The notes under the pieces were generated by a model. That model saw only the letters and a program-made list of their open reading frames with translations, was not told the origin of the DNA and searched no databases. 64,000 nt of DNA from positions 3,268,501-3,332,500 of the forward strand of contig NZ_JAGT01000001.1 in the NCBI RefSeq assembly GCF_000526795.1, written 5' to 3'. Position 1 is the stretch's first letter. Each line of letters starts with the position of its first letter. Made by a program: the position numbers and the translations under genes. Source of the DNA: Ruminococcus flavefaciens AE3010 (GTDB taxonomy: Bacteria; Bacillota; Clostridia; Oscillospirales; Ruminococcaceae). Shown here piece by piece: positions 1,432-56,795 of the stretch.

Positions 1432-2931
1432 ATGAAAAAGTTATTGGCAATGATAATCATGACAGTATTGACAATAGTAGTTTTAATACCATTTACAGCT
1501 TATGCTGCGGACGTGGATTCGGTCTTGAATGCTCCTGTGTGGAACGATTATGTTGAACAGTCCATGGAGCTCGACAAAACTCCTGGACTTGCAGTTGCGG
1601 CAGTAAAAGGTTCAGATGTGGGCTTTAAGAATTGGGGATATGCAGATATAAAAGAAGAAACGCCGATGACGGAAGATACTCCCGTACATATAGGTTCATG
1701 TTCAAAAGCTTTCACTGCGCTGTCCGTCCTGCTTTTACAGGAGGAAGGAAAGCTCTCCATAGAGGACAGTATTTCCGACTACATTCCATGGTGGCATGTT
1801 ACATACAACGGACGTGATGCGGATATAAAGATATGGCAGCTCCTGAATCATTGCTCAGGTATCCCTAATGCGGCAACCATGGCAAAGTATCCCTCAGAAG
1901 CAGACGCGGACGAAGAGAAAATCGCACGTATTGCCGAAGATCTTGAACTCGTATCTGCACCCGGTGAAAAATTTGAATACTGTAATCTTGGTTACTGTAT
2001 TCTTGCATATCTTACCGAAACTGTCAGCGGTATGCCCTTTGATGAATATGTTGTAAAGGAGATAATGCAGCCCATAGGCATGACTCACAGCGGATATGAC
2101 CTGCCTGTTGCACAGGGGTATATTTATTTCTGGGGCAGACCTAAAGCCTACAATGCTCCCCATGCGAAAGGTATCGAGGGAGAAGGCTTTGCAGTAACGA
2201 CTGCTTCGGATATGGCTCTGTGGCTGAAAGCACAGATGGGACAAGCCGAACTTCCAGAAAAGCTGGAAAAGGCAATTGCTGCATCTCACGAAATAATCGA
2301 AGCCCATTACCCCAAGGACGGGATAAGGTGTGACGCAGATGACTGCAGCTATTTCAACGGATGGTATATCACCGACGGCGGAGTGCTTGAACACGGAGGC
2401 TGGAATCCGACCTTTAAGGCTCAGGTAATAATAGACCCAAATAGAGGAACAGCTGTTTTTACCGATTGTAATTCAACTGCAAATACTCAATGGTATGCAA
2501 TGAACAGCTGCTACAGGGAGCTTACCGGTAACAGGAGATATATAGATATTGTGCGATGTGATATGTTCATAATTGATATCATTGCGTCTGTATTATCCCT
2601 TATAATAGTTGGGATCATCCTCTTTACTGCTGTTATGTTCCTGACACAAAAAAAGAGACTTGCCGCAAAAACAAGTACAGCCAAAAAAGAAAGGCATTTA
2701 TTATATGCAAGAATAATCCCGCTGTTCATTTTTCTATGCGTGTCGATTATGATACCGTATGTCTTAGGTGCAGCACTGGGCTATCCCGGATTCGGCTATC
2801 GGCAGGTATGGACATGGGGCGGTCAGTCAGCGGTAGTAATGTGTCTGCTGCTTGATGTGCTGATAATTTTCCTGCTCATAACAAGTATCGCAAGGTACAT
2901 ACGCAGAAAGGAAGCTATAAATAAGAGCTGA
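1432..2931 (+). CDS. Membrane-anchored serine hydrolase, beta-lactamase/DD-peptidase fold
   Basis: A 499-residue protein beginning with a signal peptide (residues 1-25, ending AYAA). The class C beta-lactamase/penicillin-binding fold is shown by the SxxK motif S-C-S-K at about residues 89-92, the Y-C-N triad at about 183-185 and a late HGG box. These are the nucleophile, the general base region and the third active-site element. The C-terminal 120 residues carry three hydrophobic segments, so the catalytic domain is probably outside the cell and tethered at its C-terminus. Substrate is unknown: peptidoglycan stem peptides, esters or D-amino-acid peptides are all usual for this family. ATG 1432 follows AGGTGGGG and is preferred over an upstream in-frame start that would hide the signal peptide. 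Confidence 0.85.
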   Translation: MKKLLAMIIMTVLTIVVLIPFTAYAADVDSVLNAPVWNDYVEQSMELDKTPGLAVAAVKGSDVGFKNWGYADIKEETPMTEDTPVHIGSCSKAFTALSVLLLQEEGKLSIEDSISDYIPWWHVTYNGRDADIKIWQLLNHCSGIPNAATMAKYPSEADADEEKIARIAEDLELVSAPGEKFEYCNLGYCILAYLTETVSGMPFDEYVVKEIMQPIGMTHSGYDLPVAQGYIYFWGRPKAYNAPHAKGIEGEGFAVTTASDMALWLKAQMGQAELPEKLEKAIAASHEIIEAHYPKDGIRCDADDCSYFNGWYITDGGVLEHGGWNPTFKAQVIIDPNRGTAVFTDCNSTANTQWYAMNSCYRELTGNRRYIDIVRCDMFIIDIIASVLSLIIVGIILFTAVMFLTQKKRLAAKTSTAKKERHLLYARIIPLFIFLCVSIMIPYVLGAALGYPGFGYRQVWTWGGQSAVVMCLLLDVLIIFLLITSIARYIRRKEAINKS

Positions 2932-3037
2932 TATTACTGATACAGATTTGCTGTTGTTTGCGTTATATCCAAGCATCTTATACCCAAGCCCTTTAATATC
3001 ATCATGTGGGGCATAAATTTATCTTTCTGAAATGATA

Positions 3038-3066
3038 TTGTGTTTTTTGCGTTTGAGTGATATAAT
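3038..3066 (+). promoter_or_regulatory. Sigma-A promoter of the zinc-ribbon protein
   Basis: TTGTGT (3038-3043), 17 bp, TATAAT (3061-3066), about 50 bp upstream of the ATG at 3118. Confidence 0.65.
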
Positions 3067-3117
3067 AGAGAAGCAACAGCAGGCACTCAGCCTGTTTATC
3101 GAAAAGGGGAATGACAT

Positions 3118-4380
3118 ATGAACGAAATGGGCAATAATAACACAGAGCACTCTGATCTCAGGGAGGCGTACAAAACATTTGTAAGGCAGATGTCAAACTG
3201 GTATAACGGAGGGGAAATTCCCGAACTTGCAAGTCAGGATCTGCGCTTTGTTTTAGAGCTGCAAAAACAGAAGCTGCAATCCCTCGGACTTGATTTGAAG
3301 TACGAGCTCCGGAATACAGGTTCGAGGAATGTCTCGGGCGTTTCTTTAAGCGACAGGATATTTAAAAACACCGTAATGGGCGGATATATGGATATGACAA
3401 GAAGCGTTGGCAGCTCGCAGGAGCAGCTGAGCAAAAACACTTCCGATATAAGTCTGTTTGCCATGATACAGGAGCTGAAGGACGGAGCTAACCCAAGTGA
3501 CAATATGGCACTATGCTGTCCCAAATGCGGTGCGCCTTCAACTATCGGTATGCTGCAGGACGGCTGTAAATTCTGCGGTACGAAATTCATTATGAGCGAG
3601 CTGTATCCGAAGGTCATGAACTATATGATCAATGAACGCTATAACACCGAAAGGACAAGGCTCAAAAACAAACGTGATCTGACGATCCTGATAGCGGCGT
3701 GCGCCATACCGATCACAATAGCAGAGATAATTATCAACCTGTTCTCAGGGCAGACTCCCAGTATGATCATGAATATCTTCATTGCTCTCTTTGCAGGAGT
3801 CTTTGGCGGAGCTATGCTCGGCGGCATTATCTTTGTGTTCAAAAAGCTGTTTGAGACCTTCGGACTCATCGGCAAGGGGCTTCGTGGCGGAGGACATGCG
3901 CTCCCTACGGTGCTTCGTGCATATACGATAAAATGTTACGATCCCGAGTTTTCGTCGGAATACTTCCGCGATAAGATGATATCACTGTTCAGAATGGCTG
4001 TTTACAGCAAAGATGCCTCGGAGCTTGCCTGCTGCAAATGTCAGTGTCCCGAAAGGGCAGCCGATATCATTGAAGCGCAGCTTTACAATTTCAGCATAAA
4101 CAGCTGCAAAATAAAAAACATGGTATGCGATGCAAAGGTCACGCTGTTTCTGGATTGTCTCCATTACAAAGACGGAAAAGTCAAAAGCAAGTCGGACAAG
4201 TACAGAATTCATGTGAGGAAGCGTATCAAGAACCCCACTGAGCTCGGCTTCTCTTTCTCTGCCGTGAACTGTCCCTCATGCGGCGCAAGCTTTGACGCCC
4301 ACAGAGTAAAAGCTTGTCCCTACTGTAACAGTGAGTATCTGCATGAAGATCACGACTGGGTCGTTATTGATATTAAATGA
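3118..4380 (+). CDS. Zinc-ribbon membrane protein with a Tim44-like domain
   Basis: A 420-residue protein of uncertain role. Residues about 138-155 form a first zinc ribbon (CCPKCG then CKFCG), followed by two hydrophobic segments separated by a short turn (about residues 190-250). The next 120 residues, from LRAYTIKCYDPEFSSEYF onward, resemble the Tim44-like fold found in bacterial membrane proteins of this layout. A second ribbon (NCPSCGASF and CPYCN) lies near the C-terminus. The sequence therefore suggests a membrane protein with cytoplasmic metal-binding heads, possibly an assembly or chaperone factor. The ribosome-binding site is AAAAGGGG. The Tim44 assignment is from pattern memory and should be tested by profile search. 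Confidence 0.65.
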   Translation: MNEMGNNNTEHSDLREAYKTFVRQMSNWYNGGEIPELASQDLRFVLELQKQKLQSLGLDLKYELRNTGSRNVSGVSLSDRIFKNTVMGGYMDMTRSVGSSQEQLSKNTSDISLFAMIQELKDGANPSDNMALCCPKCGAPSTIGMLQDGCKFCGTKFIMSELYPKVMNYMINERYNTERTRLKNKRDLTILIAACAIPITIAEIIINLFSGQTPSMIMNIFIALFAGVFGGAMLGGIIFVFKKLFETFGLIGKGLRGGGHALPTVLRAYTIKCYDPEFSSEYFRDKMISLFRMAVYSKDASELACCKCQCPERAADIIEAQLYNFSINSCKIKNMVCDAKVTLFLDCLHYKDGKVKSKSDKYRIHVRKRIKNPTELGFSFSAVNCPSCGASFDAHRVKACPYCNSEYLHEDHDWVVIDIK

Positions 4381-4432
4381 TCCGAAGCCGTGGGATCGCT
4401 GCATAAGCATATAAAACTAAGGAGCAATGCAA

Positions 4433-5383
4433 ATGGATATTGATTATCTGTTGATGCTGCAGCGTTTCAGAGAAAGGATAAATGATGTACTGACGCCGTT
4501 TATGGAGCTCGTATCATTATTTGCTATTTCATTTCTGATCGTTATACCTGCTTTCATATACTGGTGTACGGATAAGCGCGTGGGACTGTATGCACTTTCA
4601 TCATATGCGTTGAGTTCAGTGCTTACTGTTGTCATAAAACTGACTGCCTGCGTCTATCGGCCGTGGATAAGGGACAGCCGTATCATTCCTGCCGAAAATG
4701 CAGTGAGATCGGCAACGGGCTATTCATTCCCCAGCGGTCATACTTCAAATGCAGCCTCCATTTACGGGTGTTTAGCTCTGAGGTCACCGAAAAAGCATAG
4801 ATGGATATCGTTCGTTTGTCTGTTCATGATATTTCTCACTGCTTTTTCCAGAAACTATCTGGGCGTACATACTCCGCAGGATGTTCTCGCAGCTATACTG
4901 CTCGGAGCTGCTGTTGTATTCGGTATGTCAAAGCTGTTTGAGTACCTGTCCTGCCATACGGAAAAGGAAGACATGTTTTTGGTAGGCGGAATAGCTTTTG
5001 GAATATTGGCACTGATATATATATTCGTAAAGCCGTACCCGAGGGATATGGTGAACGGAGAGCTTATCGCTGATCCTGATATAATGATGAAGGACGGATT
5101 CGGGTGTATAGGCAGGTTTACTGCACTTTGCTTTTCAAGGTATGCCGAGAAAAAATGGGTGAGGTACAGTCCGTCACTATCCCTGAAAACAGCTGTTCTT
5201 GGTGGTGTCGGAGCTGTTATGGTCATGCTGATAATAACATTCGGCGGTTCTCCTCTGGAAGCCGTATTCGGTATACACCGGGGAGCATTTATCAGGAACT
5301 TCATAATGATGTCTTTCATTATCGTGATATGGCCTGCTGTTATGAAGCTGAGCTCCAAAGACAGAAAATCGTTGGCTGAATGA
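4433..5383 (+). CDS. PAP2-family membrane phosphatase
   Basis: A 316-residue polytopic membrane protein with all three phosphatidic-acid-phosphatase motifs: K-x6-RP (KLTACVYRP), PSGH (SFPSGHTSNAAS) and SR-x5-H-x3-D (SRNYLGVHTPQD). The second and third contain the catalytic histidines. Members dephosphorylate lipid phosphates such as undecaprenyl pyrophosphate or phosphatidate on the outer membrane face. The second half adds four more hydrophobic segments, which makes it longer than the minimal family member. ATG 4433 is 8 bases after AAGGAG, while ATG 4427 is only 2 bases away, so 4433 is preferred. Confidence 0.88.
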   Translation: MDIDYLLMLQRFRERINDVLTPFMELVSLFAISFLIVIPAFIYWCTDKRVGLYALSSYALSSVLTVVIKLTACVYRPWIRDSRIIPAENAVRSATGYSFPSGHTSNAASIYGCLALRSPKKHRWISFVCLFMIFLTAFSRNYLGVHTPQDVLAAILLGAAVVFGMSKLFEYLSCHTEKEDMFLVGGIAFGILALIYIFVKPYPRDMVNGELIADPDIMMKDGFGCIGRFTALCFSRYAEKKWVRYSPSLSLKTAVLGGVGAVMVMLIITFGGSPLEAVFGIHRGAFIRNFIMMSFIIVIWPAVMKLSSKDRKSLAE

Positions 5384-7354: not shown

Positions 7355-8827
7355 TTACGCCGCCGTTATAGGCGCATATCTCTTGGATGCAAGTATCTTA
7401 TCCATTACAGCCTCGGGGGATATTTCACCGCCCATGACCATATCGAATACTGATGGTGTGTAGCCCGATACCAGTGCAGCTCCTGTTTCGGAGCGTGTTA
7501 CAGGCATCGCGTCACATCTTGCATTTACGTTCCAGAATACTATCTCAGGCAGGTCGTAGCCGTACTGGTTGTAGAGCTTTCTCATTGCCTTGAACAGTAC
7601 ATCGTCATTGCCGCCCACAACGCAGTAGTCGAACTGCATATCCGAGATTATGTAGAGCTTCGAGGGCATATCTGCTGCTGAGACCTTGTTCTTTACAGCT
7701 GTACGGAGTATCAGCATGAACACAGCCTCAAGGTTTGTATTTGCCACCTCGTTGAAGGTGTCGCAGTAACGAACCTTCTCCACTATGTCCTTGCCCTTTA
7801 TCTCTACGAGACGGGGCTTCTCGGAGAAAGTGATGAAGTGGTTCGCAAACTCGCCTCTATTGTGCTCTGCGAAGTATATTCCCAGAGACAGCGCTGCGTC
7901 TATAGGACGTATTCCTCCGCAGCCGCAGGTCATAGAGCCTGAGCCGTCTATAACAGCTATAGCATTCTCACGTCTTGAAGCTGTCAGGTCGGGCAGGGAC
8001 TTCCATGCGGCGTCCAGTGACTTTCTCTCTGCTGCCGATATATTGCCTGTCAGTGCGGCTCTCACTATGTCGTAGGGGAACAGTCTGTCGGCATTGAGCT
8101 TTGCTGTGCCGTTGTGTACGTTATTCAGGTAGCCCGTATAACGCTCATTATCATTTCTGATAAAAGCGCGGCGGTACTTGAACATAGCGCATGAGGGCTG
8201 TACCTCATAGTCGAATGTGTAGTCACGCTCGCGGAGACGGTTCTCCAGTATGTCTGTGTATGCTCTCAGAGCGGACAGAGTACGTCTGTATGCAGGCTCG
8301 GTCATGCCAAGCAGTGCTGCCATACGTCTGCCCTTGTTTCGTGTATCCTTTGAGGACGCATTGACTGAGGGCAGCCACTTTGCAAGCAGGGAAGCCTGCC
8401 CCTTTGCATTCATAGCTGCCATATCCTTATCCAGCTGAGACTTTATCTCCTTGGCTGCTGCGTTCTCCAGAGGAGTATCCAGAAGTACGCACAGGTCGTC
8501 GAAACGGCCGTACTCAGCGAACAGAGGGATATTCTTCTCAACAGCCTTGGGAGCTGTCTTTACCAGTGCGGAAACTGCACAGCGGAAGAAACGTCTCTCA
8601 CCCAGACCGCCTCTTGCGTCACGGGCGAAGAAGATTATCTTCATGGTCTTGTCGGGATCCTCGGCGTAAGCGCGTGTTACCACGTCAGCTATCTCCTGGG
8701 CTGTGAAATTTCTCATCGCACCTGCCTTGAAGAACATATCAAGGCAGAATGACTCGGTTGAACGGTAAGCAGTACCGCCGTTTTCGGTATATGTCATGTT
8801 GGACTCGTTCTTTAAGTAGTTAAGCAT
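7355..8827 (-). CDS. Ro60/TROVE-like RNA-binding protein with vWA domain (DUF2828 type)
   Basis: A 490-residue protein. The first 280 residues are helical and begin with YTENGGTAYRST, the signature start of the DUF2828 branch related to TROVE. Ro60/TROVE proteins form a HEAT-like ring that binds Y RNAs and misfolded RNA ends. Residues about 288-460 form a von Willebrand A domain with an intact metal site: DGSGSM, the NTN threonine and ISDMQFD. It lies downstream of rtcB in the same direction, with a spacer full of structured RNA candidates, which matches known Ro-RtcB-Y RNA operons of other bacteria. ATG 8827 follows AAAGGAGAG. Function as an RNA-repair partner is inferred from family and context. 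Confidence 0.8.
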   Translation of the reverse strand: MLNYLKNESNMTYTENGGTAYRSTESFCLDMFFKAGAMRNFTAQEIADVVTRAYAEDPDKTMKIIFFARDARGGLGERRFFRCAVSALVKTAPKAVEKNIPLFAEYGRFDDLCVLLDTPLENAAAKEIKSQLDKDMAAMNAKGQASLLAKWLPSVNASSKDTRNKGRRMAALLGMTEPAYRRTLSALRAYTDILENRLRERDYTFDYEVQPSCAMFKYRRAFIRNDNERYTGYLNNVHNGTAKLNADRLFPYDIVRAALTGNISAAERKSLDAAWKSLPDLTASRRENAIAVIDGSGSMTCGCGGIRPIDAALSLGIYFAEHNRGEFANHFITFSEKPRLVEIKGKDIVEKVRYCDTFNEVANTNLEAVFMLILRTAVKNKVSAADMPSKLYIISDMQFDYCVVGGNDDVLFKAMRKLYNQYGYDLPEIVFWNVNARCDAMPVTRSETGAALVSGYTPSVFDMVMGGEISPEAVMDKILASKRYAPITAA

Positions 8828-8845
8828 AGTTTCTCTCTCCTTTCA

Positions 8846-8896
8846 GCGGGGAACCCCCGCGGGTGTCCACGTTGACGCTCGCAAGCTCGCTCACGT
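8846..8896 (+). repeat. Repeat copy A: GC hairpin plus CCACGTTG (inverted copy)
   Basis: On the plus strand a 6-bp hairpin (GCGGGG-AAC-CCCCGC) is followed after 6 bases by CCACGTTGACGCTCGC and a short inverted repeat. The same order occurs twice more (copies B and C), but on the minus strand. It lies in the 5' leader of the DUF2828 gene, so its complement would be in that mRNA. Confidence 0.55.
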
Positions 8897-8978
8897 CTTG
8901 TTTGCTCCAAAGTCTGCTTTCGCTTACGGAAAGTAAAATCAAACGGTAGTTTCAAGACAGCGTTTTTTACCATACGTT

Positions 8979-9201
8979 TCCGCAGGACAGGATTTGAACC
9001 TGTAATGACCAATTCCTTATGCTGTTGCTGACTTATTGCTTCTGAGTACTTTTCTGCTGTTGCAATGAGAGAAAGCAGACTAAGTCTTCAAATAATTGTT
9101 AGCGCGCGGAGCAAGCGTCAACGTGGCTTGCCAGCGCGGGCTCCGCGCCGCGGCTCTTTTTGTGTCACAGTGCTTACCTCCGTAGGGGCAGCCTCCTGCG
9201 T
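8979..9201 (-). ncRNA. Candidate 222-nt tRNA-like RNA with replaced anticodon arm
   Basis: On the minus strand the RNA starts ACGCAGG, followed by a 2-base linker and a D-arm-like segment (GCT...GGTAAGC). It ends with a perfect T-arm (ACAGG TTCAAAT CCTGT, 8987-9003) placed directly against CCTGCGG. ACGCAGG pairs with CCTGCGG in six of seven positions, in exact tRNA acceptor geometry. About 170 bases, including repeat B and two ACAGCA motifs, take the place of the anticodon arm. There is no anticodon loop and no encoded CCA, so it is not a translating tRNA. Bacterial Y RNAs (YrlA) are known to carry a tRNA-like module, which makes a Y-like partner of the adjacent Ro-type protein the best guess. 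The ends are inferred from pairing only. Confidence 0.55.
9104..9160 (-). repeat. Repeat copy B: GC hairpin plus CCACGTTG
   Basis: On the minus strand a GCGCGG-AGC-CCGCGC hairpin is followed by GCAAGC CACGTTGAC GCTTGC, a second 6-bp hairpin. TCCGCGCGC then follows, which can also pair back with the first strand. It lies inside the tRNA-like candidate and is a direct repeat of copy C. Confidence 0.6.
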
Positions 9202-9245
9202 TAAGACAATAATGCTGTCAGAGCCGATATTAAGATTTTGAATAC

Positions 9246-9306
9246 AAGACGCCGTATTACAATTTATCAATTCATAAAATTCCAAACGAATTGCTGTGTG
9301 CGTCTT
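9246..9306 (-). ncRNA. Hairpin unit IV of the ACAGCA array
   Basis: A 61-base unit closed by a perfect 7-bp stem (AAGACGC with GCGTCTT). ACAGCA starts two bases after the 5' strand and AATACG precedes the 3' strand. The interior folds into small hairpins (AATTC/GAATT and TTTAT/ATAAA). Unit III begins three bases away. Confidence 0.6.
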
Positions 9307-9309
9307 AAC

Positions 9310-9368
9310 AAGGTGCTTTTATGATACTACGTTAACAGCATAGTCATGAGTTCTGCTGTATGCACCTT
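9310..9368 (-). ncRNA. Hairpin unit III of the ACAGCA array
   Basis: A 59-base unit with a 7-bp closing stem AAGGTGC/GCACCTT. ACAGCA again lies two bases inside. The upper hairpin is ACTATG with CGTAGT, extended by ATGA/TCAT. The stem differs from its neighbours at paired positions, keeping complementarity. Confidence 0.6.
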
Positions 9369-9378
9369 AATGAAATGC

Positions 9379-9428
9379 AAGGCACTTTGTTATCGTGACA
9401 GGATAATGATGATTGCTGTTTGTGCCTT
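9379..9428 (-). ncRNA. Hairpin unit II of the ACAGCA array
   Basis: A 50-base unit with closing stem AAGGCAC/GTGCCTT. ACAGCA is two bases inside the stem, and the upper hairpin is TTATC-CTGTCAC-GATAA. Ten bases separate it from unit III. Confidence 0.6.
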
Positions 9429-9450
9429 TGATCAATAAAAATATAATATC

Positions 9451-9502
9451 AAGACACCGTATGAATAATCCATTTTCATTAAAAATCTGCTGTAAGTGTC
9501 TT
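9451..9502 (-). ncRNA. Hairpin unit I of the ACAGCA array
   Basis: A 52-base unit with closing stem AAGACAC/GTGTCTT. ACAGCA is two bases inside, CATACG precedes the 3' strand, and the upper hairpin is ATTTT-TAATG-AAAAT. A further ACAGCA lies 17 bases upstream (9510-9515) without a recognisable closing stem. Confidence 0.6.
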
Positions 9503-9546
9503 AAAAAAGTGCTGTAAGCGAAATGCAAGCTGCATTTTTGATGATA

Positions 9547-9598
9547 GTGAGCGAGTTTACGAGCCCCAACGTGGAAGGCGGCGCGGGCTCCGCGCTGT
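9547..9598 (-). repeat. Repeat copy C: GC hairpin plus CCACGTTG
   Basis: On the minus strand GCGCGG-AGC-CCGCGC is followed by CCGCCTT and CCACGTTGGGGCTCG. An alternative 6-bp pairing joins GAGCCC with GGGCTC. The order of elements matches copy B. It lies between the first tRNA-like element and the hairpin array. Confidence 0.55.
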
Positions 9599-9609
9599 CT
9601 TAAAACTCG

Positions 9610-9666
9610 TCGCCGTGGGAGTCGAACCCGTTCTGAACGAACTGCCAATATTGCTGGAGGCGGCGA
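9610..9666 (-). ncRNA. Compact tRNA-like element directly after rtcB
   Basis: The element begins only seven bases after the rtcB stop codon. A 6-bp stem (TCGCCG/CGGCGA) closes it. Inside are a D-arm-like stretch with TTGGCAG, a short GTTC-GTTCA-GAAC hairpin and a T-loop-like GGG TTCGACT CCC. The anticodon arm is absent and the T-stem has only three good pairs, so it is not a functional tRNA. Being almost joined to rtcB, it is probably part of the rtcB transcript and could mimic a ligase or maturation substrate. Confidence 0.45.
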
Positions 9667-9672
9667 AATAAA

Positions 9673-10908
9673 TTAACCCTTTACTACTCCGACGGTGAAG
9701 AGCTTCTTCACAGGCTCTGTAAGATCCTGCTGATTAGCCATTACATCGTTGATGTCCTTGTATGCAAAGCGAGCTTCCTCAGCTACATCATTCTTATTGT
9801 TCTTGGCAAGAACTACATTCTTTTCCTTCAGGTCTACCATTACGGACTCTACGGAGAATGTGTCCTTTGCTGCGGTTCTTGAGTAAGCTCTGCCTGCGCC
9901 GTGAGAAGATGACATGAAGCTGTCGGGATCGCCCTTGCCGCGTACTATGTAGCTGTAGGAGCCCATAGCGCCCGGGATAATGCCCATTTCACCCTCGCCT
10001 GCACGGATAGCACCCTTTCTGTGTACCCATACATTCTTGCCAAAGTGATTTTCAAGGGCTGCATAGTTGTGGTGGCAGTTTATCTCATCCGAGAATACAG
10101 GAGCTATGCCTGTGTGCTTCTCAATGTGCTTTGTGAATATATCCTTTATCTTGCCGAGCATGATAGCACGGTTCTCATAGGCGAAATCCATACAGAGCTG
10201 CATCCACGCAAGATAGCGCTTGCCCTCGTCTGTATCCACAGGCAGGAACGGTAAATTCCATTCATTGGGCACCTGTGAGAACCACTTGTCGTTGAGCCCG
10301 TGAGCTATCTTATTGAAGTACTGTCCCACGATATTGCCGAAGTGACGGCTGCCCGAATGGAGCATGATACCGCACATTCCGTCATCGTCCTGCTGGAGCT
10401 CGATGAAGTGGTTTCCGCCGCCGAGAGTACCTGCCTGAAAGTAGCCCTCCTCTATCTGAGGGATAAGCTCCTTGTCAGCCTCGTACTGTCCCATTTCAGC
10501 CTTTGCACGGTCGAGTACCTCAGATGCCTGAGCTGTCTTGTAATGCGCGAAGCCTGTGGGGATATTTCTCAGGATATCGCCGCAGATAGTCTGCACAAGG
10601 TTGCCGCTGCCTGTTACTGTTTCACGGAGAAGCGATACGGGGATATCGGTCTGGACATAAGCCATGCCGCAGCCTATATCAACTCCTACCGCATTTGGGA
10701 TAACAACGTCCTCGCAGGCGATGACTCCGCCTATGGGCATACCCTTTCCTGCATGAGTATCGGGCATTAGTGCTATCCACTTGTGTGCGAATGGTAACTT
10801 CGCAAGGTGCTCCGCCTGTTCGATACACTTCTCGCCGACAGCTTCCATATCTGTCTGCCATATCTTTATGGGGAGCATATTTTCGTTCTTGTTGTAATGT
10901 ACGAACAT
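9673..10908 (-). CDS. rtcB: RNA-splicing ligase RtcB
   Basis: A 411-residue GTP- and metal-dependent ligase that joins RNA 2',3'-cyclic phosphate or 3'-phosphate ends to 5'-hydroxyl ends. Conserved blocks are present: MPDTHAGKGMPIGGV, AVGVDIGCGMAY with the metal-binding cysteine, GGGNHFIEL, HSGSRHFG, and SSHGAGRAYSR with the histidine that carries GMP. The length fits the shorter bacterial type. The preferred ATG at 10908 (MFVHYNKN) follows a purine-rich GAGAAGTGAAG. An upstream in-frame start would overlap the promoter and add 31 unlikely residues. No RtcA cyclase and no archease lie next to it. Regulation is probably by the divergent WYL pair. Confidence 0.95.
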   Translation of the reverse strand: MFVHYNKNENMLPIKIWQTDMEAVGEKCIEQAEHLAKLPFAHKWIALMPDTHAGKGMPIGGVIACEDVVIPNAVGVDIGCGMAYVQTDIPVSLLRETVTGSGNLVQTICGDILRNIPTGFAHYKTAQASEVLDRAKAEMGQYEADKELIPQIEEGYFQAGTLGGGNHFIELQQDDDGMCGIMLHSGSRHFGNIVGQYFNKIAHGLNDKWFSQVPNEWNLPFLPVDTDEGKRYLAWMQLCMDFAYENRAIMLGKIKDIFTKHIEKHTGIAPVFSDEINCHHNYAALENHFGKNVWVHRKGAIRAGEGEMGIIPGAMGSYSYIVRGKGDPDSFMSSSHGAGRAYSRTAAKDTFSVESVMVDLKEKNVVLAKNNKNDVAEEARFAYKDINDVMANQQDLTEPVKKLFTVGVVKG

Positions 10909-11030: not shown

Positions 11031-11057
11031 ATAAATAAGGAAAGGGGAGTGGCTCAA

Positions 11058-12320
11058 ATGGCAGGTTTTTCGGAGCTTATAAAGAATTTCGATAAAACAA
11101 GAGAATATGTTCGTGATTTCTTCATTTACGGCTGCAAGGTCAGAAGCGATTTCGACAAAAAGAGCGTCCGCACCTACGACGACGAGAAGAGGCGTGTAGA
11201 GAGCTGGATGCAGGACTATATGCGCTATGATGATTCTGCAAAGGGACGTCATGTATCCATTTCCGTTGACAGCGGTCATATTTCCGAAAATCCGCTGTAT
11301 AACGCATATTACTCCAAGAGCTTCACCGATAACGATATAAAGCTGCATTTTCTTCTTATTGATATATTGCAGGACGGCAGGAGCCGCACTCTCAGGGAGC
11401 TGACCGATACTCTGAACAGCGAATACGAGCAGCTGTTTGATGACCAGACTGTGAGAAACAAGCTAAAGGAATATACCGATGAGGGGATAGTTGCAGCCGA
11501 AAAGCAGGGCAAGACCATGTATTACTCCCTTGCCGCTTTATGTGCAGATGATCTCATAAAGATGTACAGGGGACTTGATGACGCTTTGAAGTTCTTTTCG
11601 GAAGCTCCCGATCTGGGAGTTATCGGCAACAGCATAATGAAAGCTGTCGGCATCAAAAATGACCTGTTCCACATAAAGCATAATTACATGATACACTCCC
11701 TTGAGGACATACTCGTCCCCGATATACTGGCGGCTATCGATGATAAGTGCAGTATCACTGTGAAGAAATTCTCATGGAAGAAAGACGACGAGTTTTCCGA
11801 AGAGGAGATAATCCCCATGCAGATACTCGTTTCCGTGCAGACGGGCAGGCGCTATATAGCGGCATATGTGCCGAGACGGCGCAGGTTCGTCACTTTCAGG
11901 CTTGACAGGATAAAACAGATAAAGAGGGAGTCCGTCTGCGCTGACTATGACAGGCTCAGAGAGCGCTATGACGTGAATATACAGCGCTGCTTCGGAGTTT
12001 CATTCGGAGACCGTCATGAAGTGGGCGCAGTAAGCGCCATTAAGATAACCTTTACTGTTGACGAGAGGAACGAAAGCTTCATCATAGACCGTTTAGAGCG
12101 TGAGAAGCGCTGTGCCGTTCTTGAAAAGACAGGGGAGGGGCTCTATACTCTGACTGCCGATGTATTTGACCCCAACGAGCTGATGCACTGGGCAAAGACC
12201 TTTATCGGGCGGATAGTTTCCATAGAGGGCGGAACAGAGAAGATACGCAGGCGTTTCTACAGCGATATCCGCAGAATGTACCGAATGTACGGAGGTATTG
12301 AAGATGAACATATTCAGTGA
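11058..12320 (+). CDS. WYL-domain transcriptional regulator, first of pair
   Basis: A 420-residue regulator. A winged-helix segment lies at about residues 95-165 (LRELTDTLNSEY, FDDQTVRNKLKEYTDEGIV). The WYL core follows with RRYIAAYVPRRRRF and FRLDRIKQIK, at about residues 270-300, and then the WCX tail. WYL domains are ligand sensors, proposed or shown to bind nucleic acids in several defence and repair systems. It overlaps the second WYL gene by 17 bases and starts divergently from rtcB. ATG 11058 lies 8 bases after AAAGGGGAG. A GTG at 11049 overlaps that site and is less likely. Confidence 0.82.
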   Translation: MAGFSELIKNFDKTREYVRDFFIYGCKVRSDFDKKSVRTYDDEKRRVESWMQDYMRYDDSAKGRHVSISVDSGHISENPLYNAYYSKSFTDNDIKLHFLLIDILQDGRSRTLRELTDTLNSEYEQLFDDQTVRNKLKEYTDEGIVAAEKQGKTMYYSLAALCADDLIKMYRGLDDALKFFSEAPDLGVIGNSIMKAVGIKNDLFHIKHNYMIHSLEDILVPDILAAIDDKCSITVKKFSWKKDDEFSEEEIIPMQILVSVQTGRRYIAAYVPRRRRFVTFRLDRIKQIKRESVCADYDRLRERYDVNIQRCFGVSFGDRHEVGAVSAIKITFTVDERNESFIIDRLEREKRCAVLEKTGEGLYTLTADVFDPNELMHWAKTFIGRIVSIEGGTEKIRRRFYSDIRRMYRMYGGIEDEHIQ

Positions 12321-13290
12321 GATATATGGCACATATTTCCGTATAGCTGCGAGGCTTCTTGAAAATGAGGTCACGGACGAAAAGACAGTCCGTGAAATTG
12401 TAATGCGTGATGGCTTCCGCGATTCTGTGCTGTTCCTGCCTCAGAAGCTCATACCCAGCGGAGAGGACTGTGGACTATTCAGACGGGGCGTCGATAATAT
12501 GCTCAGGCGCATAACAAAAAAATCACCTGTGAAGGTGCTGACAAAGCTGCAAAAAATGTGGCTGAAAGCCAAGCTCTCCGACCCGAGGATAAGGCTTTTC
12601 CTTGAGGACGATGTCATAGAGGGCTTAATGGAGGAGCTTGCAGATGTAAAGCCCCTGTACCGTCATGAGCATTTCAGGCTCACGGACAGACATGCAGACC
12701 ATGACGACTATTCCGACGAGAAATATATCGCAATTTTCCGTACAGCTCTTGACGCTGTGAAGAAGCGTAAAATAGTGGATATATCTTTCACATCAGCTCA
12801 CGGAAAGCATGTCAGCGGCAGGTTTGTAATGCTTAAAATTGAGTTTTCGCCCAAGAACGGAAAGTTCCGAGCGTACTGCTATCGGCTCGGCAATGATAAG
12901 ATAAAGAACAGCGGTCTTATAAATATCGGCAGGATAGATACGATAACCGATACGGGGCGAGTGTTCCGTACTCCTGTGTCTATGGACGATTATTTCAGCA
13001 GCCGAAAGTGCAGCACTCCTGCGGTCATAAGGGTGACTAACGAGAGAAACGGCGTGGAGCGCTTCATGCTGGAATTTGCTCCCTACGAGAAGCATACTGT
13101 CCGCGACCTTGAAACAGGGCAATATACCGTTGAGCTTTGGTACGACGAACAGGACGAGACAGAGGTGCTCATAATGCTGCTCAGCTTCGGACCTGTCATA
13201 GAGATACTCGGTCCCGAGAAGCTGCGTGAGCAGGCGAAAGAACGCTTGATGCGGCAGTATGAACTGCTTTGGAAAAACGAACAAGGTTAA
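12304..13290 (+). CDS. WYL-domain transcriptional regulator, second of pair
   Basis: A 328-residue protein with the same general plan. The N-terminal half has no clear recognition helix. The WYL-type barrel lies around residues 140-215 (KKRKIVDISFTSAHG, then FRAYCYRLG), and a WCX-like C-terminus ends in a conserved FGPVIEILGPEKLREQ. ATG 12304 is 8 bases after GGAGG (12291-12295), and the gene begins inside the end of the first WYL gene, so the two are translationally coupled. Paired WYL proteins often act as heteromers. Its most likely target is the rtcB promoter. Confidence 0.78.
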   Translation: MNIFSEIYGTYFRIAARLLENEVTDEKTVREIVMRDGFRDSVLFLPQKLIPSGEDCGLFRRGVDNMLRRITKKSPVKVLTKLQKMWLKAKLSDPRIRLFLEDDVIEGLMEELADVKPLYRHEHFRLTDRHADHDDYSDEKYIAIFRTALDAVKKRKIVDISFTSAHGKHVSGRFVMLKIEFSPKNGKFRAYCYRLGNDKIKNSGLINIGRIDTITDTGRVFRTPVSMDDYFSSRKCSTPAVIRVTNERNGVERFMLEFAPYEKHTVRDLETGQYTVELWYDEQDETEVLIMLLSFGPVIEILGPEKLREQAKERLMRQYELLWKNEQG

Positions 13291-24270: not shown

Positions 24271-27183
24271 TCAGCTTTTGGAAATGCTTTGTGCTTTGAT
24301 CTCGCTGCCGCCCCATTCAACGACTGTGAAGCCCTTTCTCTCAAAGGTCTCAAGCTGCTGCGGCTGGATATCCACGGCTTCTTCAAGTGGAACATATGCC
24401 ATGAATACGCGGAGCAGGCTGTCAGGGTTCGGAGTGATGTTAAGCTTTGCGGAATCTGTATACACATCGCCCTGGAACGAAATGAGATTATACGCATTAT
24501 GCTCCATCAGCGGCAGCCAGTACACGATGAACTCATTCATTTCTTCCTCGGTAAGTCCCATATATGTGAGCTTTTCCTTTAGGAAGCTCTCGGTGTCTTT
24601 TCCTGCAACGCAGAAGCCCTGAGTGAAGTCGAATCTTGTACGGCAGTTCACAGCGTCCCAGAACAGGTACTTGTGATGTGTACCGTCAGCCTTGTTGAGA
24701 AGTGAGCCGTCGGGAGAAGCTGTAACGTTCCAGCCGTTGTTATACCTCGGATATGTCGTTGATAGGTCGGCTTCTGTGAGCTCCAGCTCCACATGGACAT
24801 CGGTCTCCTCTTCGGGATAGAGGTAGATCACAGGCTTTTTTGCAACAAGTTCAAAATAGATCGTTGAGGTTTTGCCGTCATCTGTGAATACCTTTATCCA
24901 GCCATATTGACCGTTGTATTCCGTAAACAGCCAATCATTGTTGTTGTCCTGAGTGCCTTTTTCGATAAGACGCGTATCCGCAGGAATGGTAGCGAGGACT
25001 TCATAGCTTTCATCAGGCCCTGAATAAAGCTTCAGACTGTTCTCCTTAACAAAGAATGGAGTGCCGAACTCAAAAAGCTCATCGGGCTCGACATAAGAAC
25101 TATTATTGCCTTTATCCAGCATCTCTCTCAGCTTTGTTAGTACACTTGGAAATCTGTCAGAGGATGCCTGTTTCTGAGAGCCGTCTGCATTGTTAAGTGT
25201 CACCTTGAAATCTATTTCACTTGGTCTGGGTGGTGCTGTTTCAACTTCAAGGTAGTTGTTATAAGCTTCAGACATGATCTCACGATATTCCTGTTCCGAA
25301 ATCTGGATGCTTTTAGACTTAGGTTCCTGATCATATGTCAGATCCTGATAAGACAGAAAATAATTTTCGCCTTCACTGTACACTTTATATATGAGCATTG
25401 CTCCTACAACGCCGCCTGATTCTTGGATGCTGACCTCAACAGGCAGATTTATTGATCTCAGAAGTGCCTTTCTCATAAGGACAAGGTCAAATATGTCGAG
25501 TTTGTTGTCGCGGCAGAAGTCCACAGCTTTCAAGTCAGAGAGCTTCACTGAGGCTGAACCCAGCAGCCACTTCTGCATGGTGACAATATCTGCCACACTG
25601 ACAGAACCGTCCCCGTTGGCGTCACCGCTGGGATTCCACTTCATTCTGCAAGCTAGTTCAACGCTGTTTGAGCTTTCGGATATTACTTCAAACGTAAGGG
25701 AGTCATACCCGCCTGATCTGCTGTCTGTGTGGAAAGAATAGCTGCATGACTTTTCGTATACATAAGCCGACTTCAATGTGCAGGGGTTAGAACTGATATC
25801 AAATATCTCGCTTGTGGAAGGTGTTCCTGAGGTGCATTTCAGAAGGTATGTATTGTCCTCGGGAATGTCTGTCAGCTCTCCTGTATCTGCGTCGTAAAAG
25901 GTTATCTTGGTTGATTTCTTGGAGTTGCTGTTCTTTTTCAGCCTGAACACAACGTCAGCGGTGCCATTATCGTATTTTTTTACGGTCATATAGTCCTCGG
26001 GGACGATAGTTCCGTTGTGGAAGCCTGCTTTTCCGTCTTCTGTATCGGGCAGGGAATATCCCAAAGGCAGGTCGCTGCTGCTTAATCCGAATGAGAAATT
26101 GTAGCCCTCAAAGAAGCTGCCTAAACGTACAACAGCAGGATTCTGTTTGAAGCCGCTTGGCTGCATATTAAGGAATACCTCGCCGTCGGGAGTGCTTTGG
26201 CTTATATCTGTCCATATGGTGGGCATTGCACCGTCTTCAAGGGTTAGGAGCTCCCCTGTGTCATAGTCGGCAAGGGTGACACGCATATCTCCCGAAAGCA
26301 GTATGTTCTGTCCGCCGTTTATAACTGCGCAGTCAGCAACAAGAGGCTTTTTATCTTCGTAATCATCGGAAAAAACTTCTCCGAAATAGTAAGAAATCTT
26401 GTCATAGCCGTCCTTGACAGCCTTGTATACATAGATAGTGTTGACCTGCCCGCCGTCAAGAGGAACAGAAGTCAGGGGAGTACAGCTGCTTGTGGTTTCA
26501 AGCTTGAAGCATTCCGTCCCCTTATCTTTCTGAGTCCAGTCATAGGCAGTGCCTGCGTTATGAGACAGGCAGAACACAACATAATTATCCTTTACGGATA
26601 AATGGGAGTTTTTCTCTGCATAATCCCAGTATTCCTTTTCGCAGTCAGGCAGCCAGCTGTAGATATCGGTCTCGGTGATATTGAGCTCCTTATCGACGGT
26701 AAATGTGTATTCTGCAACGGTGGGAGGTTCCCAGTTGTCACCTGTTTCCTTTTCCGATGGCTTCACCTGTACATGAGGATCAACAAGCTTCAGTGTGAGG
26801 TCGCCCTGTACCTGGGGCTGATATACGAACACTTCAAAACAGGTCTCGGTATTATCGCTCAGGTAAATGTCATGCTTTAATATCTGTCTGCTGTTCCCAT
26901 CAGTACGCAGTTCATAGCCATAAGTGTCGCTGCTTTTTCCTTTTTCTGCACGATTTGGATAAACGATGCAGATCAGACCATTCTGGATATGCACAGCTCC
27001 GTATGTATTTCGGAATTCAAGTGCAGACTCAGGGTCTGTTGGTACCCATTCGGGAAGCGATACTGCTGCGCCTTTTTCTTCCGCGTATACATTCGTTGGT
27101 GAAAAAACGTTCACGTTATCTGCGGAAAAAGGAATGATTGCTGTTGAAGCTGCTATAACGGCAGCTGCCAGTTTCTTTAACAT
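24271..27183 (-). CDS. Large secreted dockerin protein with SH3b domain
   Basis: A 970-residue protein with a signal peptide (residues 1-35). About 480 residues of repeated beta-rich modules that I cannot name come first. A dockerin sits mid-protein (GDANGDGSVSVADIVTMQKW and DFCRDNKLDIFDLVLMRKA, about residues 525-585). A module after it (VEVSIQESGG, ISEQEYREIM) recurs in the GH11-like protein at 56891. Next come a bacterial SH3 domain (SLKLYSGPDESYEVLATIP, NGQYGWIKV) and a C-terminal domain beginning KPVIYLYPEEETDV that is known from other secreted proteins of this group. A dockerin in the middle rather than at an end is unusual. No catalytic site is recognised. Confidence 0.75.
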   Translation of the reverse strand: MLKKLAAAVIAASTAIIPFSADNVNVFSPTNVYAEEKGAAVSLPEWVPTDPESALEFRNTYGAVHIQNGLICIVYPNRAEKGKSSDTYGYELRTDGNSRQILKHDIYLSDNTETCFEVFVYQPQVQGDLTLKLVDPHVQVKPSEKETGDNWEPPTVAEYTFTVDKELNITETDIYSWLPDCEKEYWDYAEKNSHLSVKDNYVVFCLSHNAGTAYDWTQKDKGTECFKLETTSSCTPLTSVPLDGGQVNTIYVYKAVKDGYDKISYYFGEVFSDDYEDKKPLVADCAVINGGQNILLSGDMRVTLADYDTGELLTLEDGAMPTIWTDISQSTPDGEVFLNMQPSGFKQNPAVVRLGSFFEGYNFSFGLSSSDLPLGYSLPDTEDGKAGFHNGTIVPEDYMTVKKYDNGTADVVFRLKKNSNSKKSTKITFYDADTGELTDIPEDNTYLLKCTSGTPSTSEIFDISSNPCTLKSAYVYEKSCSYSFHTDSRSGGYDSLTFEVISESSNSVELACRMKWNPSGDANGDGSVSVADIVTMQKWLLGSASVKLSDLKAVDFCRDNKLDIFDLVLMRKALLRSINLPVEVSIQESGGVVGAMLIYKVYSEGENYFLSYQDLTYDQEPKSKSIQISEQEYREIMSEAYNNYLEVETAPPRPSEIDFKVTLNNADGSQKQASSDRFPSVLTKLREMLDKGNNSSYVEPDELFEFGTPFFVKENSLKLYSGPDESYEVLATIPADTRLIEKGTQDNNNDWLFTEYNGQYGWIKVFTDDGKTSTIYFELVAKKPVIYLYPEEETDVHVELELTEADLSTTYPRYNNGWNVTASPDGSLLNKADGTHHKYLFWDAVNCRTRFDFTQGFCVAGKDTESFLKEKLTYMGLTEEEMNEFIVYWLPLMEHNAYNLISFQGDVYTDSAKLNITPNPDSLLRVFMAYVPLEEAVDIQPQQLETFERKGFTVVEWGGSEIKAQSISKS

Positions 27184-56521: not shown

Positions 56522-56795
56522 ACAAAAAACTCGTCTCAAAGATGTTCTTTGAGACGAGTTATCATTACTTGATCACCCGCGGTACCACTCAAATTGTGCC
56601 GCTATTGCGTAACACCACTTCAGACTCCAGCAAGTCCTATTCATTAACGCAGAATCACGGGAACGCTTACTGATAACTTTCAGCACTCCGGCTCAGAAGG
56701 GATACATAGCATTGCATAACACCGACTCACACCCACCGTCGGCTCTCTGAAGACATTGGCAATTCTCTGCTTGGCTTCCTCATAGCTTATGTTCA
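56522..56795 (-). promoter_or_regulatory. T-box riboswitch (leader of the acyl-CoA ligase)
   Basis: On the minus strand the leader contains the AGAGAG stem I motif, the hallmark T-box GAGTGGTACCGCG (around 56575-56590) that pairs with uncharged tRNA ends, and a terminator. Aligned on the fixed distance to the TTCTGAGC that closes stem I, the specifier triplet is best read as AUC (Ile). This rests on hand alignment, and the base after it is C instead of the usual purine. Uncharged tRNA would switch on the ligase gene. Confidence 0.85.
56524..56560 (-). terminator. Regulated terminator of the T-box
   Basis: AACTCGTCTCAAAG pairs with CTTTGAGACGAGTT over a 5-base loop and is followed by six T residues on the minus strand. 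It competes with the antiterminator formed around the T-box sequence. Confidence 0.9.

Follow-up and report, generated by a model that had tools for sequence, protein, structure and literature searches.

A family of handle elements linked to Ro60-like DUF2828 proteins carries anticodon loops and other tRNA-like parts in bacteria and phages

The window analysed here is a 64,000-nucleotide (nt) stretch of contig NZ_JAGT01000001.1 from Ruminococcus flavefaciens AE3010 (GCF_000526795.1). Its minus strand carries the RNA ligase gene rtcB (9673..10908; Pfam RtcB E 2e-108) and, downstream of it, a gene for a Ro60-like protein of 490 aa with Pfam domains DUF2828 and DUF7788, the latter of vWA type (7355..8827). 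The 845-base spacer between them (8828-9672) contains seven members of a family of RNA-like elements in which a common handle encloses a variable payload. The family is linked to DUF2828 genes in bacteria and phages, part of its payload loops are identical to real anticodon loops, and different loops occur on the same stem. The explanation that we find moderately plausible is that DUF2828 protein and handle RNAs form a ribonucleoprotein (RNP) whose RNAs act as baits or decoys for tRNA-attacking enzymes.

An earlier note on this DNA had described the two genes as co-directional and the spacer as lacking a plausible protein. Both statements hold, since the only spacer open reading frames (ORFs) of at least 60 aa encode 66 aa (8812-9012, overlapping the gene start) and 93 aa (9367-9648), both from TTG starts.

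Handle elements in the rtcB-DUF2828 spacer

The seven elements lie on the minus strand and share one design: seven bases (AAGACAC, AAGGCAC, AAGGTGC, AAGACGC and similar), two free bases, the hexamer ACAGCA, a payload, the complementary seven bases and a G. The resulting handle has a stem of 7 bp, an asymmetric internal loop (NN-ACAGCA) and a G after the stem.

Elements 2 to 5 each combine a perfect 7-bp stem with ACAGCA. Element 2 (9450..9502; AAGACAC/GTGTCTT, then G) has a payload with a GG-containing loop that is perhaps D-arm-like. Element 3 (9378..9428; AAGGCAC/GTGCCTT, then G) carries TTATC-CTGTCAC-GATAA, the loop of which is identical to the anticodon loop of host tRNA-Asp. The payload of element 4 (9309..9368; AAGGTGC/GCACCTT, then G) is ACTATG-CTGTTAA-CGTAGT, with the anticodon loop of host tRNA-Asn, and that of element 5 (9245..9306; AAGACGC/GCGTCTT, then G) is a hairpin. 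These are the four hairpins (9451-9502, 9379-9428, 9310-9368 and 9246-9306) that the earlier note had called covarying, a description that gains independent support from the hexamer control given below.

Elements 1, 6 and 7 depart from the perfect form by a single mismatch or a variant core; they were placed in the family by visual inspection, guided by the common design and by relatives. Element 1 (9606..9666) has the stem TCGCCGC..GCGACGA with one C.A mismatch, the core CCAGCA and a T-arm-like payload, GGGTTCGACTCCC; its counterpart in relatives L031 and L036 has ACAGCA at the equivalent place. Element 6 (9150..9227; TCGGCTC/GAGCCGC with a terminal mismatch) holds a long structured payload of a frequent class. 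Element 7 (8953..9034; AAGTCAG/CTGTCTT with one mismatch, then G) holds a T arm, ACAGGTTCAAATCCTGT, preceded by AATTGGTC, and its payload is, on its sequence, a putative tRNA elbow mimic; a counterpart is seen in L031. Two stretches that had been noted as tRNA-like (9606-9666 and 8953-9034) are therefore handle-family members with T-arm payloads, and 9150-9227 is the seventh member.

R1, a covariance model built from 60 short elements, scores elements 2-5 at E 8e-9 to 2e-7, its training set including these four. Elements 7 and 6 reach only E 0.06 and 0.08, and element 1 is missed. ARAGORN finds no tRNA anywhere in the window. Rfam has no family in the spacer at gathering score; relaxing the threshold to E <= 5 adds just a T-loop fragment of tmRNA.

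Conservation and linkage to DUF2828

The bacterial sample consisted of the best 80 of 148 named-genome loci with a DUF2828 protein, mostly titled Ruminococcus or Oscillospiraceae, plus the window. Loci L001-L030, which come from same-genus genomes and are largely the same loci as L031-L110, were excluded from this 81-locus count and later ones. The scan covered the rtcB-DUF2828 interval or, at loci without a recognised rtcB, 1.5 kb of upstream sequence, and applied a strict rule: seven of seven pairs, no more than one of them G-U, and a G behind the stem. This yields 295 elements, with at least one in 80 of the 81 loci and 1 to 7 per locus; the sole locus without a strict element, L110, has a truncated gene copy. 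Homologous loci with unrelated, non-folding spacers, named in the earlier note as the counter-evidence to look for, were thus sought and not seen.

In the same scan, no more than 3 strict elements are obtained with any of the 59 other orderings of the ACAGCA letters, and 0 on the reverse strand; the DUF2828 genes with the sequence downstream of them, 478,561 nt in all, contain 3. In 60 elements, all seven stem pairs show compensatory changes. These pair counts are partly circular because elements were picked for perfect stems, but the hexamer control is not.

Conservation was also checked by covariance model, as the earlier note had suggested. Among 125 same-genus genomes, R1 elements occur in 66 and the DUF2828 protein in 66; both are present in 63 and neither in 56 (Fisher 9e-28). 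This whole-genome search used Infernal's stricter filters with 45 candidates scored per genome, so that weak elements may escape. The protein occurs without an element in G089 (first 60 residues missing), G100 (a fragment) and G120 (a weak match), and an element without the protein in G018, G068 (E 0.008) and G121.

The rtcB gene is upstream in 39 of the 61 relatives having at least 5.5 kb of upstream DNA. Because it is directly upstream of DUF2828 in just 43 of the 81 loci (the window and 42 of the 80 others), the elements follow DUF2828 and not rtcB.

DUF2828 is rare in the wider phylum (7 of 398 genomes, including the window's own). The six other loci encode proteins 39-51% identical, and five of them (L126, L127, L128, L129 and L131) have strict upstream elements; L130 has an ACAGCC form. 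Canonical TROVE loci (six, from 299 genomes) gave one strict match, with a payload of about 180 nt, six being too few for a firm negative. Near-identical solitary elements lie outside the array at L132 (2573-2644) and L135 (minus strand, 2287-2357), one of them on a different contig, the other 2.7 kb upstream of DUF2828.

A dispersed repeat does occur in the window's spacer. The earlier note had counted three copies of a GC-hairpin there; the sequence is present, but the genome contains 20 further matches to the copy at 9095-9165, and this dispersed genomic repeat was rejected as a component of the system. The only direct-repeat family detected by scanning is the handle itself. The spacer of the close relative L031 is 451 bases long, compared with 845 in the window. 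That the handle elements are likewise functionless mobile or dispersed repeats, or debris of the tRNA genes that are plentiful in many phage loci, is highly improbable. R1 matches only the window's four elements across the complete host genome, the stems are unlike host anticodon arms yet paired, and the linkage to a single gene family with a conserved core largely contradicts this explanation.

A predicted Ro60 fold

In its predicted structure, the DUF2828 protein consists of a ring of helical repeats and a vWA domain, as in Ro60, and this modelled fold is that of Ro60. The TROVE domain (Pfam PF05731) was not found in it; DUF2828 and DUF7788 are the only domains at E <= 0.001, and a search of PDB sequences with a DUF2828 family profile gave no match. 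Residues D294, S296, S298, T364 and D396 are invariant across 40 relatives. They fit the pattern DxSxS, T, D, which we take to be that of a metal ion-dependent adhesion site (MIDAS), and mark a putative metal site. The predicted fold, together with an RNA-like element family that tracks the gene, supports the earlier proposal that a DUF2828 protein stands in place of Rsr and several small RNAs in place of one Y RNA.

tRNA parts in bacterial payloads

Bacterial payload tests used the 285 distinct payloads among the 295, and T loops were set aside before anticodon loops were counted. Payload hairpins of at least 5 bp have 7-nt loops in 142 cases compared with 36 in shuffles. Loops of 5 nt are at expectation (35 versus 37), and those of 6, 8 and 9 nt are moderately raised (69, 53 and 63 versus 33-35). 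Part of the 7-nt loops are T loops. Among the 98 that are not, 31 are identical to one of the 42 anticodon loops of the host genome, where letter-permuted loops give a mean of 0.48 and a maximum of 4 in 2000. The identities are to Asn (CTGTTAA, 6), Glu (CTTTCAC, 6), Asp (CTGTCAC, 5), Lys (CTTTTAA, 5), Phe (CTGAAAA, 5), Gly (CTTCCAA, 2), Ser (1) and Leu (1). Counted per payload, 31 of 285 pass, for which dinucleotide shuffles give a mean of 0.165 (maximum 2 of 200) and random stretches of the same length a mean of 0.075 (maximum 1 of 40).

With stems of at least 4 bp there are 34 anticodon-loop elements, the stem being 5 bp in 25, 6 bp in six and 4 bp in three. They are not plain copies of tRNA genes, because none of the 34 stems equals a host anticodon arm. 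Among relatives, loops are switched on constant stems. The TTATC/GATAA stem carries loops of Asp (3), Glu (6) and Gly (1), the Asp-like CTGTCAA (5), CTACCAA (1) and ATGAAAA (3); TCATA/TATGA carries Lys (3), Ser (1) and Asn (1); and CTATG/CGTAG carries Asn (4), Lys (1) and CCGTTAA (1).

Looser classes (at least 4 bp, n=295) comprise 54 T arms, the 34 exact anticodon loops, 32 anticodon-like hairpins and 175 others. T-arm elements run into an acceptor-like hairpin in 29 of 54 cases (shuffle mean 4.7, maximum 13), and L063 and L080 look, by eye, like permuted tRNAs. GG-containing loops occur in 13 of 57 cases against 3.9 expected (maximum 10 of 2000; payloads of at most 45 nt only), which is no more than suggestive of D-arm mimicry. 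The recurrent long class (GGGRCGCAG ... CTGYG), found at 9150-9227 in the window and at many loci with TCGGCTC or ACGGCTC handles, could be matched to no tRNA part and no Rfam family.

A predicted Ro60 fold would also suit a role in general RNA quality control, with the RNAs as a tether or gate in the manner of Y RNA: the payloads would bring ordinary tRNA-handling enzymes (PNPase, modification enzymes, RtcB) to the ring, and tRNA attack would play no part. A precedent exists in Deinococcus radiodurans, whose Rsr is tethered to PNPase by a Y RNA, and in YrlA, which has a tRNA-like domain (PMC7790460). This explanation alone does not account for why anticodons of many tRNAs are displayed or why they are switched while the stem stays the same, and we regard it as rather unlikely.

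Handle elements in phages and plasmids

Of 50,697 phage records, 681 contain the DUF2828 protein, which is labelled 'Ro-like RNA binding protein' in some mycobacteriophages. The viral sample comprised the best 80 of 251 viral contigs encoding DUF2828 relatives. Strict matches number 148, in 58 of the 80 loci, compared with 15 for the best other hexamer; the scan covered both strands of whole loci, so that some of the 148 are chance matches. Identical payloads were counted once, which reduced 141 elements to 121. ARAGORN calls tRNAs in 53 of the 80 loci, and nine of the 121 distinct elements overlap one. Among the other 112, 59 have a 7-nt loop that is not a T loop, and 23 of these 59 are the same as an actual anticodon loop, belonging either to the host or to these phages (for permuted loops, mean 0.99 and maximum 5 of 1000). 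Lys UUU accounts for seven of the 23, and a few lie inside larger tRNA-like payloads.

In phages, tRNA parts also occur in circularly permuted order: T arm, acceptor hairpin, D arm. A first test with fixed 7-nt acceptors was blunt (bacteria 7 versus 3.3 expected, viruses 8 versus 1.9). A rule tuned after its outcome finds the permuted order in 8 of 28 viral T-arm elements (shuffle mean 0.23, maximum 3 of 300). ARAGORN run on doubled payloads makes three new calls among the 121 viral elements, two of them permuted by this rule, and no new call among doubled bacterial payloads. Ten loci of cultured phages contain 34 strict elements, with at least two per locus and some probably by chance, compared with at most 4 for other hexamers. 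In these fresh sequences, for which the acceptor-loop limit was nevertheless widened again, from 9 to 13, 7 of 9 T-arm elements are permuted (shuffle mean 0.39, maximum 3 of 300). The records examined have no annotation at the places of these seven permuted tRNAs.

Permuted order is also what would be expected if the handle were a processing or circularisation site, where RtcB ligates the cut paired ends. The products would be circular RNAs or, in phages, mature tRNAs made from permuted genes as in algae and archaea. Reversed tRNA genes do give circularised transcripts (PMC10085705), and RtcB neighbours are known here. A further observation that would fit comes from the bacterial locus L126. 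By eye, a stretch some 175-75 bases upstream of 4875 resembles a tRNA with its parts in normal order, a capped handle hairpin forming the anticodon region. This sequence is not called by ARAGORN, and its topology is opposite to that of the permuted elements. However, the short bacterial anticodon-hairpin elements could not yield a tRNA, only 3 of 121 viral payloads are called as tRNA after doubling, and rtcB is not directly upstream in 38 of the 81 bacterial loci. A handle that serves as a processing or circularisation site is therefore improbable.

Phages also bear on whether the hairpins are a cis-acting leader that controls translation or transcription of DUF2828, perhaps by sensing tRNA or the DUF2828 protein. 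In bacteria the elements are directly upstream of the gene and in one direction, as a leader would be. In phages they are distant from the gene, among tRNA genes and downstream of DUF2828. Escherichia phage adrianh (Felixounavirus; host E. coli K-12 MG1655), for example, has all four of its handle elements downstream, beside 24 annotated tRNA genes. Together with the solitary copies of L132 and L135, this makes a leader function very unlikely.

Expression data bear on Listeria phage CKA15, whose protein CKA15_055 belongs to the DUF2828 family and is 38% identical. Three highly read non-coding regions have been reported within 2 kb upstream of this Rsr-like gene, with Y RNAs offered as one explanation, and the protein was detected by 20 peptides in purified particles, although, as that report warns, detected proteins that are encoded outside the structural module need not be true components of the particle (PMC12282133). 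The handle array of CKA15 is at 25,290-25,552, behind a TTGACA-17-TATCAT site, and in light of that report it may be expressed. The most abundant RNA region (26,236-26,727; L280 3737-4228) was rejected as a handle RNA; it has no ACAGCA handle inside.

Plasmids carry the system as well. Four records have the DUF2828 protein, and of the three examined, L216 has a handle with a Phe anticodon loop, L218 one with a Lys loop, and L217 none. The frequency of the system in phages and the mimicry of anticodon loops and other tRNA parts by payloads had not been recognised in the earlier note.

A proposed bait or decoy particle

We favour a bait or decoy role for the handle RNAs. DUF2828 would be a Ro60-like ring protein that binds a row of small RNAs, transcribed in the host, through their one common handle. 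The far end would differ from RNA to RNA and in many cases present part of a tRNA. This would be the anticodon stem-loop of a particular tRNA (Asp, Asn, Glu, Lys, Phe or Gly) or a T arm or elbow; entire or circularly permuted tRNAs would be displayed mostly in phages. Such a particle may engage anticodon nucleases and other tRNA-attacking enzymes with a set of exchangeable baits or decoys, and so spare the real tRNAs or report on them. RtcB, where present, would re-join cleaved RNA.

Colicin E5 targets Asp and Asn tRNAs among others, PrrC targets Lys, and zymocin targets Glu. AriB of the PARIS system cuts tRNAs that include Lys UUU and Asn GUU, and tRNAs of phage T5 counter PARIS (PMC12409363).

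Several results weigh against this proposal. No nuclease is linked to the system. In Listeria phage LMTA-57 an annotated tRNA-splicing ligase lies 1.3 kb behind the DUF2828 gene, but similarity to the window's RtcB is seen in only one of the 80 viral loci. The loci are related to one another, so that counts are not independent. The 175 of 295 payloads outside the named classes include the frequent long class of 9150-9227, and the full permuted-tRNA rule, with a D arm, is satisfied by 1 of 54 strict T-arm elements in bacteria (shuffle mean 0.12, maximum 2). For 33 elements RNAalifold predicts the handle only, whereas 82% of cells for the named hairpin are paired and each of its five pairs shows double changes (set A3: handle AAGGCAC, payloads of 24-34 nt). 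Minimum-energy folds of isolated elements 3 and 4 lack the anticodon hairpin, and that of element 4 instead pairs ACAGCA with TGCTGT. Promoter-like sites in the window number 2 against 3.2 expected, and a scan for terminators found no excess.

More tentatively, the system can be pictured as a modular immune or counter-immune RNP, in which a Ro60-fold protein carries an evolvable library of decoys (anticodon loop, elbow, permuted body). Host and phage lineages may swap loops to track the tRNA nucleases they encounter. If so, the library would be renewed like a guide array, through structural mimicry instead of base pairing, and tRNA finders would miss permuted tRNA-like RNAs that the same protein holds in tRNA-rich phages. 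The element family bears on the reasons for which Ro proteins persist in bacteria and phages and on the resemblance of some bacterial Y RNAs to tRNAs. It makes the question testable, in that a recognisable anticodon loop names the imitated tRNA and predicts a class of nuclease or modifying enzyme.

Neighbouring genes

Divergent from rtcB and DUF2828, on the plus strand, is a pair of genes (11049..13290) for proteins with WYL (11049-12320) and WCX (12298-13290) domains in Pfam, which are probable regulators. Relatives of the pair are present at 49 of 61 loci. The pair is tied to RtcB because L126 fuses WYL, WCX and RtcB domains in a single ORF of 781 aa (2203-4548) beside DUF2828. Elsewhere in the window there is a T-box leader (56547-56792, minus strand; Rfam RF00230, 108.9 bits).

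Comparison with known systems

The Ro-Y RNA particle, tRNA-like Y RNAs and RtcB neighbours have already been described (PMC7790460), as have a TROVE protein in some jumbo phages (PMC7824862) and predicted Y RNAs in mycobacteriophages (PMC12282133). The literature searched, which lacked two central works on bacterial Y RNAs and bioRxiv, contained no description of DUF2828-linked RNA arrays, of their anticodon-loop mimicry or of permuted tRNAs in phage handles. Four papers in it mention DUF2828, and their titles place all of them in plant research.

The nearest relatives of the system are the Ro60/Rsr-Y RNA particle and the rsr-yrlBA-rtcBA operon of S. Typhimurium and D. radiodurans. Shared features are the Ro60-type predicted fold, candidate small RNAs beside the gene, some of them tRNA-like, and an RtcB neighbour, here in about half of the loci. 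At the sequence level, however, the protein is DUF2828 here and TROVE there. There are 1 to 7 strict elements per locus rather than one or two Y RNAs, and these have a common ACAGCA handle and anticodon-loop payloads, unlike the Y RNAs of the rsr operon. The neighbouring regulators are WYL/WCX proteins, with no adjacent RtcR. With bacterial Y RNAs the elements share a place beside a Ro-like gene (80 of 81 loci) and, in part, a tRNA-like module (T arms in 54 and exact anticodon loops in 34 of 295; permuted tRNAs in phages), but not a match to a described Rfam family.

Circularly permuted tRNA genes of algae and archaea resemble the phage elements in that the 3' half of the tRNA precedes the 5' half and a stem joins the ends. 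T arm, acceptor and D arm in this order, with a paired acceptor, occur in 8 of 28 and 7 of 9 phage T-arm elements and in 1 of 54 bacterial ones. Unlike the algal and archaeal genes, the permuted tRNA-like parts here are enclosed in an ACAGCA handle beside a Ro-like gene.

Phage Ro-like proteins reportedly include the Ro60 of Thermus phage phiLo (PDB 9l5y). Among phage Ro-like systems, those of CKA15 (38% identical) and of mycobacteriophages have the same protein family as the window, and the CKA15 report, whose examined parts give no account of the handle, the anticodon loops or permuted tRNAs, likewise places proposed non-coding RNAs beside the gene (PMC12282133).

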